A DNA stretch of 64,000 nt from positions 372,001 to 436,000 of the forward strand of contig NZ_BDCO01000002.1 of assembly GCF_001613545.1 (NCBI RefSeq), given 5' to 3'. Positions 23,025-27,044 of this stretch are shown in pieces. Each line of letters opens with the position of its first letter. Positions within the stretch are counted from its first letter, which is position 1. The position numbers and the translations under genes are program-made. This DNA is from Terrimicrobium sacchariphilum. Its GTDB lineage: Bacteria; Verrucomicrobiota; Verrucomicrobiia; Chthoniobacterales; Terrimicrobiaceae. The notes under the pieces are model-generated. The model searched no databases. It had not been told where the DNA came from and worked only from the letters and a program-made list of their open reading frames with translations.

Positions 23025-23053
23025 TTGACCGTCCGGAAACCCGCCGCAATCTT
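23025..23053 (+). promoter_or_regulatory. Candidate promoter of the SAM riboswitch transcript
   Basis: TTGACC at 23025-23030 and AATCTT at 23048-23053 are separated by exactly 17 bases. The implied transcription start, about seven bases later, falls at the first paired base of the riboswitch. The -35 matches the sigma-70 consensus at five of six positions, but the -10 matches at only three. Position is the best argument. Confidence 0.42.
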
Positions 23054-23061
23054 TCCCACGA

Positions 23062-23206
23062 TTCTTATCGAGAGTGGCGGAGGGACTGGCCCTGTGATGC
23101 CACGGCAACCGCTTCCAGCCGAGCAGAGCACTCAAGCTCTCCGAGGCGGGAAGGCCCAGGTGCCAAATCCTGCTCTGGCGCGAAAGCGTCGGGGAAAAGA
23201 TGAGGA
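23062..23206 (+). promoter_or_regulatory. SAM-I (S-box) riboswitch aptamer
   Basis: The core consensus of the S-box is present in order. P1 is TTCTTATC (23062-23069) pairing with GATGAGGA (23199-23206). GAGAGTGGCGGAGGGACTGG follows, with the GGAGGGACTGGCCC kink-turn signature, then GATGCCACGGCAACC. The downstream core element GGTGCCAAATCC is at about 23159. A P4-like stem sits near 23171-23192. SAM binding normally turns the downstream gene off. There are 75 bases between P1 and the threonine-synthase start, with no hairpin followed by a T run, so control at translation initiation is more likely than termination. Confidence 0.93.
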
Positions 23207-23281
23207 TGCGACAGTCACAATGGTCCTTGGGGAAAATTGTCGTCGTCTCTCGTCACTACGCTCGGTGGGAAGACAAAGACA

Positions 23282-24544
23282 ATGAACGAAGACAGACCTT
23301 TCTTTTCCAACCTGAAATGCCGTGAGTGCGGCCGCCTTTATCCGAAGGAGGCCATCCACATCTGTGAGTTCGATTTCGGCCCGCTTGAGGCGGCCTACGA
23401 TTACGACGCCATCCGCTCCAGCATCAGCCGAGAGCGCATTACCTCCCGCCCGCAGACGATGTGGCGGTATCGCGAGTTTCTTCCCATCGACGGCGCACCG
23501 ACAGTGGGCGCGCAGGTGGGCTTTACTCCGCTGGTCAAGGCCGATCGCCTCGCCGCCGCGCTCGGCGTGAAGGAGCTTTACATCAAGAACGACACGGTGA
23601 ATTACCCGACCCTTTCCTTCAAGGATCGTGTCGTCTCCGTGGCTCTCAGCCGCGCCCGCGAGCTGGGCTTCAAGGTTGTCGCCTGTGCCTCCACGGGCAA
23701 TCTGGCCAATTCCGTCGCCGCCAATGCCGCCGCCGCCGGACTGCGCAGTTATGTCCTGATCCCGGCCGACCTCGAGCAGAGCAAGGTGCTCGGCTCGCTC
23801 GTCTACGGGACGAACGTCATCGGCATCCACGGCCCCTACGACCAGGTGAACCGCCTTTGCTCCGAGATTGCGGGCAAGTACGGCTGGGGATTCGTCAATG
23901 TGAACCTGCGGCCCTACTACGCCGAGGGATCGAAGACGATGGGCTTTGAAATCGCCGAGCAGCTCGGCTGGAAGCTTCCGCGCCACACAGTCGTCCCGAT
24001 GGCCAGCGGGTCGCTCCTGACCAAGATTCACAAGGCCTACAAGGAGTTCATCCACACGGGCATCATCGAGGACCAGCCGTTCACCATTCATGGTGCGCAG
24101 GCCAGCGGATGCTCGCCCATCAGCGAGGCGATGAAGAAGCAGGTCGAGATCGTCAAGCCGGTGCCGAAGCCGGAGACCATCGTGAAGTCCCTCGCCATCG
24201 GCACCCCGGCGGACGGTTACTACGCCATCCGCACCATGAAGGACACCGGCGGCAGCGCCGAGGACGTGTCCGACGCCGAGGTGATCGAGGGCATCCGTCT
24301 CCTTGCCGAGTACGCCGGCATCTTCGCCGAGACCGCTGGCGGAGTGACGGTTGCCAGTGCCCGCAAGCTCATCGAAAGCGGCAAGATCCCGCGGGATGAG
24401 AGCATCGTCCTGTGTATCACCGGCCATGGCCTGAAAACCGCCGAGGCCGTGCAGGGCAAATGCGGCGAACCCCGTCTCATCAAGCCCAGCCTCCGCGAGT
24501 TTGAAGCGCTCGTGGCCGACGAAGTGGCTGCCGCAGCCAACTAA
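23282..24544 (+). CDS. thrC: Threonine-synthase-like PLP enzyme (SAM-riboswitch controlled)
   Basis: The 420-aa protein is a fold-type II PLP enzyme of the threonine synthase family. The Schiff-base lysine is Lys114 in YPTLSFKDRVV, and the phosphate-binding loop is ASTGNLANSVAANAA near residue 139. The N-terminus carries LKCRECGRLYPKEAIHICEF with Cys13, Cys16 and Cys28, like a partial zinc ribbon. Threonine synthase converts O-phosphohomoserine to threonine. The SAM-I riboswitch upstream and a MoaD/ThiS-type carrier 14 bases downstream are unusual for that role. They suggest use of the same substrate with a sulfur donor to make homocysteine or a related product. Ordinary threonine synthase remains the default call. 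Confidence 0.85.
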   Translation: MNEDRPFFSNLKCRECGRLYPKEAIHICEFDFGPLEAAYDYDAIRSSISRERITSRPQTMWRYREFLPIDGAPTVGAQVGFTPLVKADRLAAALGVKELYIKNDTVNYPTLSFKDRVVSVALSRARELGFKVVACASTGNLANSVAANAAAAGLRSYVLIPADLEQSKVLGSLVYGTNVIGIHGPYDQVNRLCSEIAGKYGWGFVNVNLRPYYAEGSKTMGFEIAEQLGWKLPRHTVVPMASGSLLTKIHKAYKEFIHTGIIEDQPFTIHGAQASGCSPISEAMKKQVEIVKPVPKPETIVKSLAIGTPADGYYAIRTMKDTGGSAEDVSDAEVIEGIRLLAEYAGIFAETAGGVTVASARKLIESGKIPRDESIVLCITGHGLKTAEAVQGKCGEPRLIKPSLREFEALVADEVAAAAN

Positions 24545-24558
24545 CTTTCCTTACTACC

Positions 24559-24834
24559 ATGCCAATCCAAGTCCGTATTCCCACACCCCTGCGCAAGCTG
24601 ACCGGCGAAAACGAAGTCGTCGAGGCAGAGGGCGCAACCGTATCCGAAATCTTCAAGAGCCTCGAGACGACCTATCCCGGTCTCGGTGAGCGCATCCTCG
24701 ACGAGCAGGGTGCCGTTCGCCGTTTTGTGAATGTCTACCTCAACGAGGACGACATCCGCTTCCTCAATGAACTGGCCACGCCGGTCAAGGAAGGCGACGA
24801 GATCAGCATCGTTCCCGCCATCGCCGGAGGTTAG
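24559..24834 (+). CDS. MoaD/ThiS-family sulfur carrier-like protein
   Basis: This 91-aa beta-grasp protein ends in ISIVPAIAGG, the exposed Gly-Gly that is adenylated and thiocarboxylated in ThiS, MoaD and CysO. Other family features are VRIPTPLRKLTGENEVVEAE at the start and FVNVYLNEDDIRFLN near residue 55. It starts 14 bases after the ThrC-like stop, so the two are co-transcribed behind the SAM riboswitch. In Mycobacterium, CysO donates sulfur to the PLP enzyme CysM; a comparable donation to the ThrC-like enzyme is inferred. No activating E1-like (MoeB/ThiF) enzyme or JAMM protease is present in the window. Confidence 0.85.
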   Translation: MPIQVRIPTPLRKLTGENEVVEAEGATVSEIFKSLETTYPGLGERILDEQGAVRRFVNVYLNEDDIRFLNELATPVKEGDEISIVPAIAGG

Positions 24835-24913: not shown

Positions 24914-25360
24914 ATGACTCTCAGCGACGAACAGAAATCCGCCATCTCCCAATGGATCGAGGGAGGCGCGAGCCTTTCGGAAATCCAAAAACGGCTGAAG
25001 GAAGAGTTTCAGATTTCCCTGACCTATCTGGAAACCCGTCTGCTCGCCGACGACCTCAAGCTCGCCTTCAAGGAGCCTGAGCCCGAGCCGGCCGTCGACC
25101 AGCCTCTGCCGCCGCCGGAACCGGAAGTCCCAGCCGAGGCACCCGGCAAGGTTACTGTCACCATCGACCAGATCACCCGCCCGGGTTCCATTATCAGCGG
25201 GCGCGTGACTTTTTCGGACGGCGAAAAGGCCGAATGGTATCTCGACCAGATGGGCCGTCTCGGCCTCAATGCCAATACGCCCGGCTACCGTCCCTCGCAG
25301 GACGATGTGATGAGCTTCCAGATGGAGCTCGAGAAGGCTGCGCGCGGATCAGGTCTGTAA
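24914..25360 (+). CDS. Uncharacterised protein with helical N-terminus and beta-type C-terminus
   Basis: I do not recognise a named family for this 148-aa protein. The first 50 residues look like a small helical, DNA-binding-like region (GGASLSEIQKRLKEEF). A proline- and glutamate-rich linker (EPEPEPAVDQPLPPPEPE) follows, then a compact C-terminal part (VTIDQITRPGSIISGRVTF, WYLDQMGRLGL). The ATG at 24914 is used because codons upstream overlap the sulfur-carrier gene. It follows that gene by 79 bases and may share its transcript, but a functional link is unproven. Confidence 0.7.
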   Translation: MTLSDEQKSAISQWIEGGASLSEIQKRLKEEFQISLTYLETRLLADDLKLAFKEPEPEPAVDQPLPPPEPEVPAEAPGKVTVTIDQITRPGSIISGRVTFSDGEKAEWYLDQMGRLGLNANTPGYRPSQDDVMSFQMELEKAARGSGL

Positions 25361-25432: not shown

Positions 25433-25840
25433 ATGGACCCGGTTTCCCTCGGCTTGCCCCATCGCGATCCGTTTGTCTTTGTCGATCGCGTCGTGGATTT
25501 GCAGCCCGGGGAATCTGCCCGAGGCGAGAAGGTCTTTTCACCTGACGACCCGATGTTTCGCGGTCATTTTCCCGGCGATCCACTGGTGCCTGGCGTCATT
25601 CTCACCGAGGCGCTCGCCCAGATGGCGGGAATCGCCGGAGGCGGCGATGGGCGGCGCTTTTTGCTCTCGGCCATTCGATCGATGAAATTTCCTTCCGCTG
25701 CGCGACCGACGCAGATCATCGCCCTTCGAGCCCGTCGGACCGGGGCAATGGGAGGCTTGTGGATGTTCGATGTTTCCGCCCGGGTGGGTGAGGTGGTGGT
25801 CGCCGAGGGACAGGTCGTTTTGAACGAGGTGACGGCATGA
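25433..25840 (+). CDS. FabZ-like 3-hydroxyacyl-ACP dehydratase
   Basis: The 135-aa hot-dog fold protein carries the catalytic pair in FRGHFPGDPLVPGVILTEAL (His of GHFPG and the later Glu of LTEAL), with LPHRDPFVFVDRV near the N-terminus. FabZ removes water from 3-hydroxyacyl-ACP in fatty acid elongation. The context is unusual: it heads a chain of four genes whose ends overlap by four bases with the next start (TauE/SafE, DUF1634, MFS) and is not near fab genes. A second dehydratase with a special substrate is possible. Confidence 0.84.
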   Translation: MDPVSLGLPHRDPFVFVDRVVDLQPGESARGEKVFSPDDPMFRGHFPGDPLVPGVILTEALAQMAGIAGGGDGRRFLLSAIRSMKFPSAARPTQIIALRARRTGAMGGLWMFDVSARVGEVVVAEGQVVLNEVTA

Positions 25841-26676
25841 CGGACCCGCTCTTTGCCATTTCCATTGCCGTGGTGGCACTCTTTGCCGGGTTGATCGGCT
25901 CCCTCATCGGGCTGGGCGGCGGAGTGATCATCACCCCGCTGCTGGTTCTCGGGTTTGGCATCGATATTCGCTACGCGATGGGAGCCGCGCTGGTCTCCGT
26001 GATTGCCACCTCGTCCGGAGCGGCAGCCGCCTACCTGCGCGACGGAATTTCCAACATGCGCATCGGCCTCTCCCTGTGCGTGGCGACCACGATCGGCGCG
26101 GTCGGCGGAGCCATGGCGGCGACGGTGCTGCCGCAAAATACGCTCTCCATCATTTTCGGCGTCGCTCTGCTCTCCACCGTTGCCCTTTCGTTGGGGAATA
26201 AAAAGCCCAAGGCGCAGGTCGAGGACAAGTCCGACCCTCTCGCGGTGAAGCTGAATCTGCCCGGCTCCTTTCCCACGCCGCAGGGAATGCAGCAGTACAC
26301 CGTGCACCGGTTCATCCCCGGCTTTCTCATGATGGGTGTGGCAGGCATCCTCTCCGGGCTGCTGGGCATCGGCTCCGGCGCGTTCAAGGTGGTGGCGATG
26401 GATCAGATCATGCGCATCCCGTTCAAGGTCACGACGGCGACGAGCAATTTCATGATCGGCGTCACCGCCGCAGCCAGCGTGGGCATCTATCTGAAGCGCG
26501 GCTATCTCGATCCGGCACTGGTCGCGCCGGTGTCGCTGGGCGTGCTGGTCGGAGCTTTTCTCGGAGCGCGGCTGCTTTCCGTGGCTCCGGTGAAAATCCT
26601 CAAGATGATCTTTCTCGTGATGGTGTCCCTTATCGCCGTGCAGATGATCCTGCGCGGCAGCGGAGTTTCCCTATGA
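25837..26676 (+). CDS. TauE/SafE-family membrane transporter
   Basis: This 279-aa protein has about eight membrane segments in two related halves. The family motif is seen as GSLIGLGGGVIITPLLVL near residue 21 and repeated as GILSGLLGIGSGAFKVVAMD near 170. TauE/SafE proteins export sulfite, sulfoacetate or related anions. The start overlaps the FabZ-like stop by four bases, and its stop overlaps the DUF1634 start. DUF1634 proteins commonly accompany this transporter family. Confidence 0.91.
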   Translation: MTDPLFAISIAVVALFAGLIGSLIGLGGGVIITPLLVLGFGIDIRYAMGAALVSVIATSSGAAAAYLRDGISNMRIGLSLCVATTIGAVGGAMAATVLPQNTLSIIFGVALLSTVALSLGNKKPKAQVEDKSDPLAVKLNLPGSFPTPQGMQQYTVHRFIPGFLMMGVAGILSGLLGIGSGAFKVVAMDQIMRIPFKVTTATSNFMIGVTAAASVGIYLKRGYLDPALVAPVSLGVLVGAFLGARLLSVAPVKILKMIFLVMVSLIAVQMILRGSGVSL

Positions 26677-27044
26677 CCGACGAAAAAATCCAGAGCCTCC
26701 TCGCCCGCGTGATGGTCGGCGGCGTCATTATCTCGGGCATCATCATCTTCAGCGGGCTCACGTGGTATCTCGCCACCCACATCGGCGTGCCGCCGGGCGA
26801 CCATGTCTTCAGCGGAGAGCCGAAGTACTTCGAATCCTTTGGCGGGATGATTCGACGTGCGTTTTCCTGGCACGAGTTTGGGGAGCGTCGCAGTGTGATC
26901 ATGGTCGGCATCGTCCTTCTGCTGTTCAATCCCATCGTCCGGGTGGGGTTGGCGGTGGCGGGGTTCTTTGCCCAGAGGGATTGGCAATATTGCGCCATCA
27001 GCGCCCTTGTCTTCGCGGTGCTGGTGTTTAGTTTCTTTGCGTGA
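26673..27044 (+). CDS. DUF1634 membrane protein
   Basis: The 123-aa protein has three hydrophobic segments (ARVMVGGVIISGIIIFSG, a middle VIMVGIVLLLFNPIVRVGLA and a C-terminal ALVFAVLVFSFFA). DUF1634 members are small membrane proteins encoded beside TauE/SafE transporters, as here, where starts and stops overlap by four bases. A role as accessory subunit is inferred from that conserved neighbourhood. The stop overlaps the GTG start of the following MFS gene. Confidence 0.87.
   Translation: MTDEKIQSLLARVMVGGVIISGIIIFSGLTWYLATHIGVPPGDHVFSGEPKYFESFGGMIRRAFSWHEFGERRSVIMVGIVLLLFNPIVRVGLAVAGFFAQRDWQYCAISALVFAVLVFSFFA

Follow-up and report, generated by a model that had tools for sequence, protein, structure and literature searches.

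A SAM-I riboswitch and a predicted MetM/MetO homocysteine synthase pair in Terrimicrobium sacchariphilum and other Verrucomicrobiota

In the CysO/CysM/Mec+ system of Mycobacterium tuberculosis, a sulfur carrier is partnered by a CysM-type enzyme that acts on O-phosphoserine, and in the HcyS/HcyD/HcyF system of Wolinella, which leads from a thiocarboxylated carrier to homocysteine, MetY and O-acetylhomoserine are used. In Streptomyces, the carrier MetO reportedly acts as a thiocarboxylate with O-phosphohomoserine. Its partner MetM was identified as a homocysteine synthase, with homologues in cyanobacteria, by Hasebe et al. (2024; AEM 90:e01247-24), according to the accessible portion of PMC12172450, which also names metO as the carrier gene and implies that a SAM riboswitch lies upstream of metM in S. 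albulus. The same portion describes a threonine synthase (ThrC) of Microcystis, 51.6% identical to S. albulus MetM, that made and deaminated threonine in vitro and with sulfide gave only an unidentified peak; its authors do not count the protein as a full MetM in vivo. Literature searches that combined threonine synthase with a carrier or MoaD and with homocysteine or a riboswitch found nothing beyond PMC12172450, and the accessible parts of PMC7311316 and PMC12452182 hold nothing on a pair of ThrC-like enzyme and carrier.

The locus described here lies in a 64,000-nucleotide stretch of the T. sacchariphilum genome (hereafter the window; contig NZ_BDCO01000002.1, positions 372,001 to 436,000, forward strand). 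Sequence comparisons make it very probable that its ThrC-like enzyme and carrier form a MetM/MetO homocysteine synthase system behind a SAM-I riboswitch. As the carrier-dependent route itself is already published, to judge from the accessible text of PMC12172450, the window is a further case, in Verrucomicrobiota. The relevant features are:

23062..23206, + strand: SAM-I (S-box) riboswitch aptamer (Rfam RF00162, 72.3 bits)
23207..23281, + strand: leader from aptamer to start codon (coordinates between the RF00162 match and the ATG)
23282..24544, + strand: MetM-type ThrC-like PLP enzyme, 420 amino acids (ATG at 23282; PALP and TIGR00260 matches)
24559..24834, + strand: MetO/CysO-like sulfur carrier, 91 amino acids (ThiS match, C-terminal Gly-Gly)

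The SAM-I aptamer that the initial annotation had placed ahead of the ThrC-like gene is matched by RF00162 over the full model, positions 1-108 of 108 (23062-23206, + strand; 72.3 bits, gathering 44.4, E 5.5e-15), and its coordinates for the unit agree with ours except for the start, 23025, which falls 37 bases 5′ of the aptamer. No other SAM-I was found in the genome of the window (4.75 Mb, 3 contigs, 96% complete). An intrinsic terminator search found no terminator-like site between aptamer and start codon of the ThrC-like gene, and the single-strand fold of 23055-23300 (z = -2.0) shows no clear expression platform.

Open reading frames and domain searches agree with the arrangement first read from the sequence, a ThrC-like PLP enzyme gene followed after 14 bases, counted from its stop to the carrier start, by a MoaD/ThiS-fold protein ending in Gly-Gly. 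The enzyme matches Pfam PALP with 226 bits and NCBIfam TIGR00260 (thrC) with 282.7 bits (cut-off 167.1), and falls under the cut-off of a second threonine synthase model, NF006050. The carrier, whose C terminus reads SIVPAIAGG, matches Pfam ThiS with 71.4 bits and exceeds the NCBIfam cut-offs of both SAMP1 and moaD_arch. Its nearest PDB sequence is chain 3dwg_C of M. tuberculosis (E 3.5e-21), entered as 9.5 kDa culture filtrate antigen, which we take to be CysO. Downstream of the carrier lie a small ORF of 148 amino acids without a Pfam match at 0.001 (24914-25360) and, about 1 kb past the carrier, genes for a TauE/SafE sulfite-exporter family protein and a DUF1634 protein (25837-27044), which may be connected with sulfur metabolism.

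How does this locus compare with the described systems? With Streptomyces MetM/MetO, as far as the available text of PMC12172450 describes it, the window shares a ThrC-homologous enzyme, an adjacent carrier gene and an upstream SAM riboswitch, but it lies in Verrucomicrobiota, in a genome that encodes MetX and MetY as well. The order of SAM-I, ThrC-like gene and carrier seen in the window recurs in the actinobacterium Nonomuraea, whose enzyme is 54.7% and whose carrier is 56.0% identical, and which is the only proxy on which the link to Streptomyces MetM rests. The carrier fold and Gly-Gly end are shared with CysO, but the partner enzyme is ThrC-type rather than CysM-type. The proposed route resembles that of Wolinella in leading from a thiocarboxylated carrier to homocysteine and differs in its ThrC-type enzyme, whose substrate would be O-phosphohomoserine. 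The cyanobacterial ThrC lineage is close to the window: among the best 80 of at least 591 matches in genome contigs, 12 cyanobacterial loci fall in the same clade, 11 of them with a carrier behind the gene, and the two enzymes compared are 60-61% identical to that of the window. Microcystis differs in that its gene has no SAM riboswitch upstream and its product is reported, in the accessible text of PMC12172450, as a threonine synthase/deaminase in vitro.

To place the pair within its phylum we used 144 verrucomicrobial genomes, evenly drawn and at least 90% complete. (Handles beginning with G, C, L and f denote our genomes, contigs, loci and families.) An orthologue of the enzyme is encoded in 9 of the 144, that of the window included, with the other eight 66-76% identical; the match that scores next shows 39% identity, and although 45 of the 144 genomes have a match at 1e-40, the non-orthologues are only 30-40% identical. 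A carrier lies immediately 3′ of the gene in all nine orthologous loci, and eight of the nine carriers end in AGG. The ninth, in G121 (L025:1170-1466), carries seven extra residues behind AIAGG, such that trimming would be needed before activation.

The pair is anticorrelated with conventional genes for homocysteine synthesis. MetX, counted at E ≤ 1e-30, occurs in 125 of the 144 genomes, none of which reaches the 500-bit cut-off of TIGR01392; by this count it is missing from eight of the nine pair genomes, all but that of the window, versus 11 of the 135 others (Fisher p 1.7e-7, inflated by the relatedness of the genomes; p = 0.0015 with 42 families as units). Some weak PF01053 match exists in all 144 genomes, but the same eight of nine, versus 3 of 135, have none as strong as 1e-20 (Fisher p 3.9e-10, likewise inflated by relatedness). 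In 11 genomes MetX is lacking though the pair is lacking too. The expectation that conventional genes would be absent where the pair occurs is borne out for MetX and for strong matches to the MetB/MetY/MetZ family (PF01053) in eight of the nine genomes and fails for the window's own, which has MetX and MetY.

In that genome MetX and MetY are convergent neighbours (MetX, NF001209, 371.8 bits, cut-off 331; MetY, TIGR01326, 660.6 bits, cut-off 495.1), and the Rfam scan of the genome found no SAM-I ahead of either. The initial annotation had asked whether metX and metY, among other genes, are missing where the pair occurs; their presence rules out loss of the conventional pathway in this genome, and the pair is therefore not its sole homocysteine route. 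It had also asked for a second thrC beside the pair; this genome has one, and a second ThrC above the TIGR00260 cut-off occurs in all nine pair genomes. A full conventional pathway with no other thrC, the combination that the annotation had set against its own proposal, is not what the genome holds, because another thrC exists. Canonical ThrC motifs are present in the second copy in eight of the nine genomes; they were sought and not seen in that of G121.

The genome of the window encodes seven PALP enzymes, that of the pair included. One is a canonical ThrC (TIGR00260, 320 bits) whose gene lies, by eye, between those of homoserine dehydrogenase and aspartokinase. Also by eye, two others are CysK-type, one is a further CysK/CysM-like enzyme and one is TrpB. 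A third ThrC-like protein (L006, G000:C3:424936-425853) is very divergent and sits on a long branch of the tree described below.

The partners that the route would need were sought in the same nine genomes. Each encodes exactly one ThiF-domain protein, with a rhodanese domain in both of the two that were checked, and seven of the nine have a methionine synthase fold (PF02574 or PF01717). Neither fold was detected in the remaining two, G036 and G057 (0.9 Mb). We rejected the DUF39 homocysteine route for the pair genomes, as PF01837 occurs in none of the nine, while the same search was positive in three of the 14 genomes used as controls.

A tree of 111 ThrC-like rows, built by a quick maximum-likelihood method, rooted at the midpoint and carrying a long-branch warning for rows that include the third ThrC-like protein of the window's genome and Nonomuraea, places 89 rows in a single MetM group (SH-aLRT 100). 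Nonomuraea lies within this group; the canonical ThrC of the window's genome and six like it lie outside. The MetM rows stand apart from the canonical ThrCs at 32 positions, where 93% or more of the 89 have a common residue unlike that of at least six of the seven canonical ThrCs; at several of these positions the MetM residue also occurs in part of the remaining ThrC-like set (14 rows). Examples are R210 in place of N, Y213 in place of R, and ETAGG in place of an EPASA stretch. Y213 occupies what we take to be the position of the phosphate-binding arginine in Thermus ThrC.

Rfam finds 15 copies of SAM-I in 14 of the 144 genomes, although its filters lose some weak matches. By coordinates, six lie ahead of the MetM pair, which is six of the nine pair genomes, and seven ahead of metX/metY, of which six precede a PF01053 gene (G035, G038, G047, G050, G087 and G127) and one MetX (G074). 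One riboswitch class is thus found ahead of either of two unrelated homocysteine routes in the same phylum. The filtered scan found no SAM-I in three pair genomes, G036 and G057 among them. Two further copies, both in G120 (C81:3001-3115 and C29:12699-12809), have no assigned downstream gene. Outside the sample, Rfam was run on 36 of the 80 more distant loci described below (L051-L085, together with L101, which was chosen for its motif) and places SAM-I ahead of the gene in 33 of them, with L074 and L101 barely above the cut-off; the other 44 were searched only with a weak regular-expression pattern that misses real S-boxes.

Our findings that a second ThrC accompanies the pair, that MetX and strong PF01053 matches are missing from most pair genomes and that the S-box stands ahead of the gene, together with the published MetM/MetO system, support the carrier-dependent route from O-phosphohomoserine to homocysteine that the initial annotation had proposed. 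We infer the following sequence of events. When S-adenosylmethionine is low, the riboswitch would permit expression of metM and metO, presumably from one transcript. The single ThiF-rhodanese enzyme would adenylate the C-terminal Gly-Gly of MetO and convert it to a thiocarboxylate, the likely sulfur donor. MetM, as a threonine synthase paralogue, would build a PLP intermediate of O-phospho-L-homoserine and take the sulfur from the carrier to yield L-homocysteine, which methionine synthase would then methylate.

It is also conceivable, if rather improbable, that the enzyme is bifunctional, yielding threonine when alone and homocysteine when supplied with the carrier, a reading that overlaps with the MetM/MetO assignment. 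The threonine synthase activity of the cyanobacterial homologue, as given in the accessible part of PMC12172450, would fit, as would the fold and family common to ThrC and the enzyme of the window. However, all nine genomes already have a second ThrC, and placing threonine supply under SAM control makes little sense.

We consider it distinctly unlikely that the gene encodes simply a second threonine synthase, or synthase/deaminase, behind a SAM switch, with the carrier serving molybdenum cofactor synthesis or tRNA thiolation. Although the enzyme scores above the TIGR00260 cut-off and the available text of PMC12172450 reports threonine synthase and deaminase activity in vitro for the Microcystis homologue, another TIGR00260 ThrC is present in nine of nine genomes, in the window's own beside homoserine dehydrogenase and aspartokinase. 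The 32 near-uniform differences of MetM from the seven canonical ThrCs also argue against a second threonine synthase, even if some are shared by other ThrC-like groups, and this explanation does not account for why eight of the nine genomes lack MetX and PF01053 enzymes. That the pair forms a CysO/CysM-like cysteine route, in which the ThrC-like enzyme would be an unusual cysteine synthase passing carrier sulfur to O-phosphoserine, is highly improbable even though M. tuberculosis CysO is the PDB sequence closest to the carrier, since the enzyme scores 36.3 bits against TIGR01138 (cysM; cut-off 394.2) compared with 282.7 against thrC, its genome has, by eye, three other CysK/CysM-like enzymes, and the genes seen to be missing from most pair genomes are those of MetX and PF01053 enzymes.

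If the MetM/MetO assignment is correct, it bears on organisms with reported gaps in methionine synthesis. The pair is a good candidate for the source of homocysteine, the methionine precursor, in several Verrucomicrobia that lack the usual genes, and automatic models label MetM a threonine synthase; the Nonomuraea enzyme, too, exceeds the NCBIfam thrC cut-off. Three of our genomes (G042, G054 and G072) are probably Methylacidiphilum, since they belong to the family of G008, and the G008 enzyme clusters in the tree with the one of Methylacidimicrobium tartarophylax (L055). The latter is a culturable methanotroph, and the route is open to testing in such isolates. The authors of a metabolic model of Methylacidiphilum fumariolicum state, in the accessible text of PMC12341988, that they could identify no genomic evidence for synthesis of L-homocysteine, and hence of L-methionine. 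The pair genome G036 is probably that of Xiphinematobacter americani. Xiphinematobacter, a nematode symbiont, retains most steps of the essential amino-acid pathways, methionine excepted (PMC4607532, accessible part), and methionine is listed among the pathways missing several genes (PMC7857533, likewise in part). In Methylacidiphilum as in Xiphinematobacter, the step to homocysteine has a direct candidate in MetM/MetO. G036 and G057 retain MetM, MetO, the ThiF-type enzyme and canonical ThrC; in the tree, their MetM proteins (L026 and L024) group with L027-L029 of family f6, not with the window's own order, which may reflect transfer or fast evolution.

Beyond the phylum, the best 80 of at least 591 matches in genome contigs include loci from Verrucomicrobiota, Mariprofundaceae, Thermodesulfobacteriota, Nitrospirota, Planctomycetota, Omnitrophota, Elusimicrobiota and Cyanobacteriota; as these are only the best 80, counts by lineage are not frequencies. 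Within this set of 80, 74 have a carrier ending in A-x-A-G-G no more than 1.5 kb 3′ of the gene (48 under tighter limits on distance and terminal motif), and of the remaining six, three have no carrier, two have a carrier whose end is unread and one stops at a contig end. Five Nitrospirota loci in the best 80 have an additional canonical ThrC that groups with that of the window's genome, some of them, by eye, with aspartokinase or homoserine dehydrogenase, which fits a branch at O-phosphohomoserine.

Among the same best 80 of at least 591, 50 carriers stop at Gly-Gly and 24 continue, including seven frames with a NIL match. With home-made profiles, a NIL-like frame on the same strand was found within 4 kb in 44 of these 80, in 42 of them within 1.5 kb downstream, and the profiles also placed ThiF (21), TusA (10) and JAB (8) near MetM in this set; JAB accompanies 7 of the 24 longer carriers and none of the 50 that stop at Gly-Gly. 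Pfam confirmed one profile call each of a carrier-NIL fusion, a separate NIL, JAB, ThiF and TusA. In L051, a near-identical record, the profile search found no NIL within 4 kb of the gene. NIL domains likewise figure in the DUF39/NIL-ferredoxin route (PMC5764234, accessible part), which differs from the MetM loci in its DUF39 protein, PF01837 being found in 0 of the 9 pair genomes. Operons of ThiS/MoaD proteins have been described (PMC1779556), with neither threonine synthase nor NIL named there, and a literature search for NIL joined to a sulfur carrier gave no paper with the phrase NIL domain among the matches listed.

Three leads may go further than published work: the NIL partner, the extra residues that follow Gly-Gly in some carriers, and the retention of the pair in Xiphinematobacter. 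One possibility, which we regard as tentative and somewhat doubtful, is that MetM/MetO was ancestrally a three-part system; in several lineages MetO would be made as a precursor, with a tail or an entire NIL domain behind Gly-Gly, and be freed by a JAMM protease, and the NIL protein would be a subunit that senses methionine or handles substrate; the lineage of the window would have dropped NIL and have the riboswitch instead, and in Xiphinematobacter homocysteine would be methylated by the nematode host.

Several arrangements at these loci deserve mention. Carrier and NIL share one frame, with NIL behind Gly-Gly, in L091 (5269-5784; confirmed by Pfam) and, by profile, in L086, L088, L102, L106, L108 and L114; NIL is a separate gene in L128 (Pfam) and, by profile, in other loci. 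In L073 (5265-5834), two carrier genes in tandem lie 3′ of MetM, followed by a NIL-like gene. In the cyanobacterial loci L117, L118 and L123, a second small protein, MoaD-like by eye and ending in PPVSGG, is encoded upstream of the ThrC-like gene. Finally, a ThiS-like domain is fused to a PALP enzyme adjoining the MetM locus in L110 (1845-2978; Pfam) and, by eye, in L100 (518-1657).
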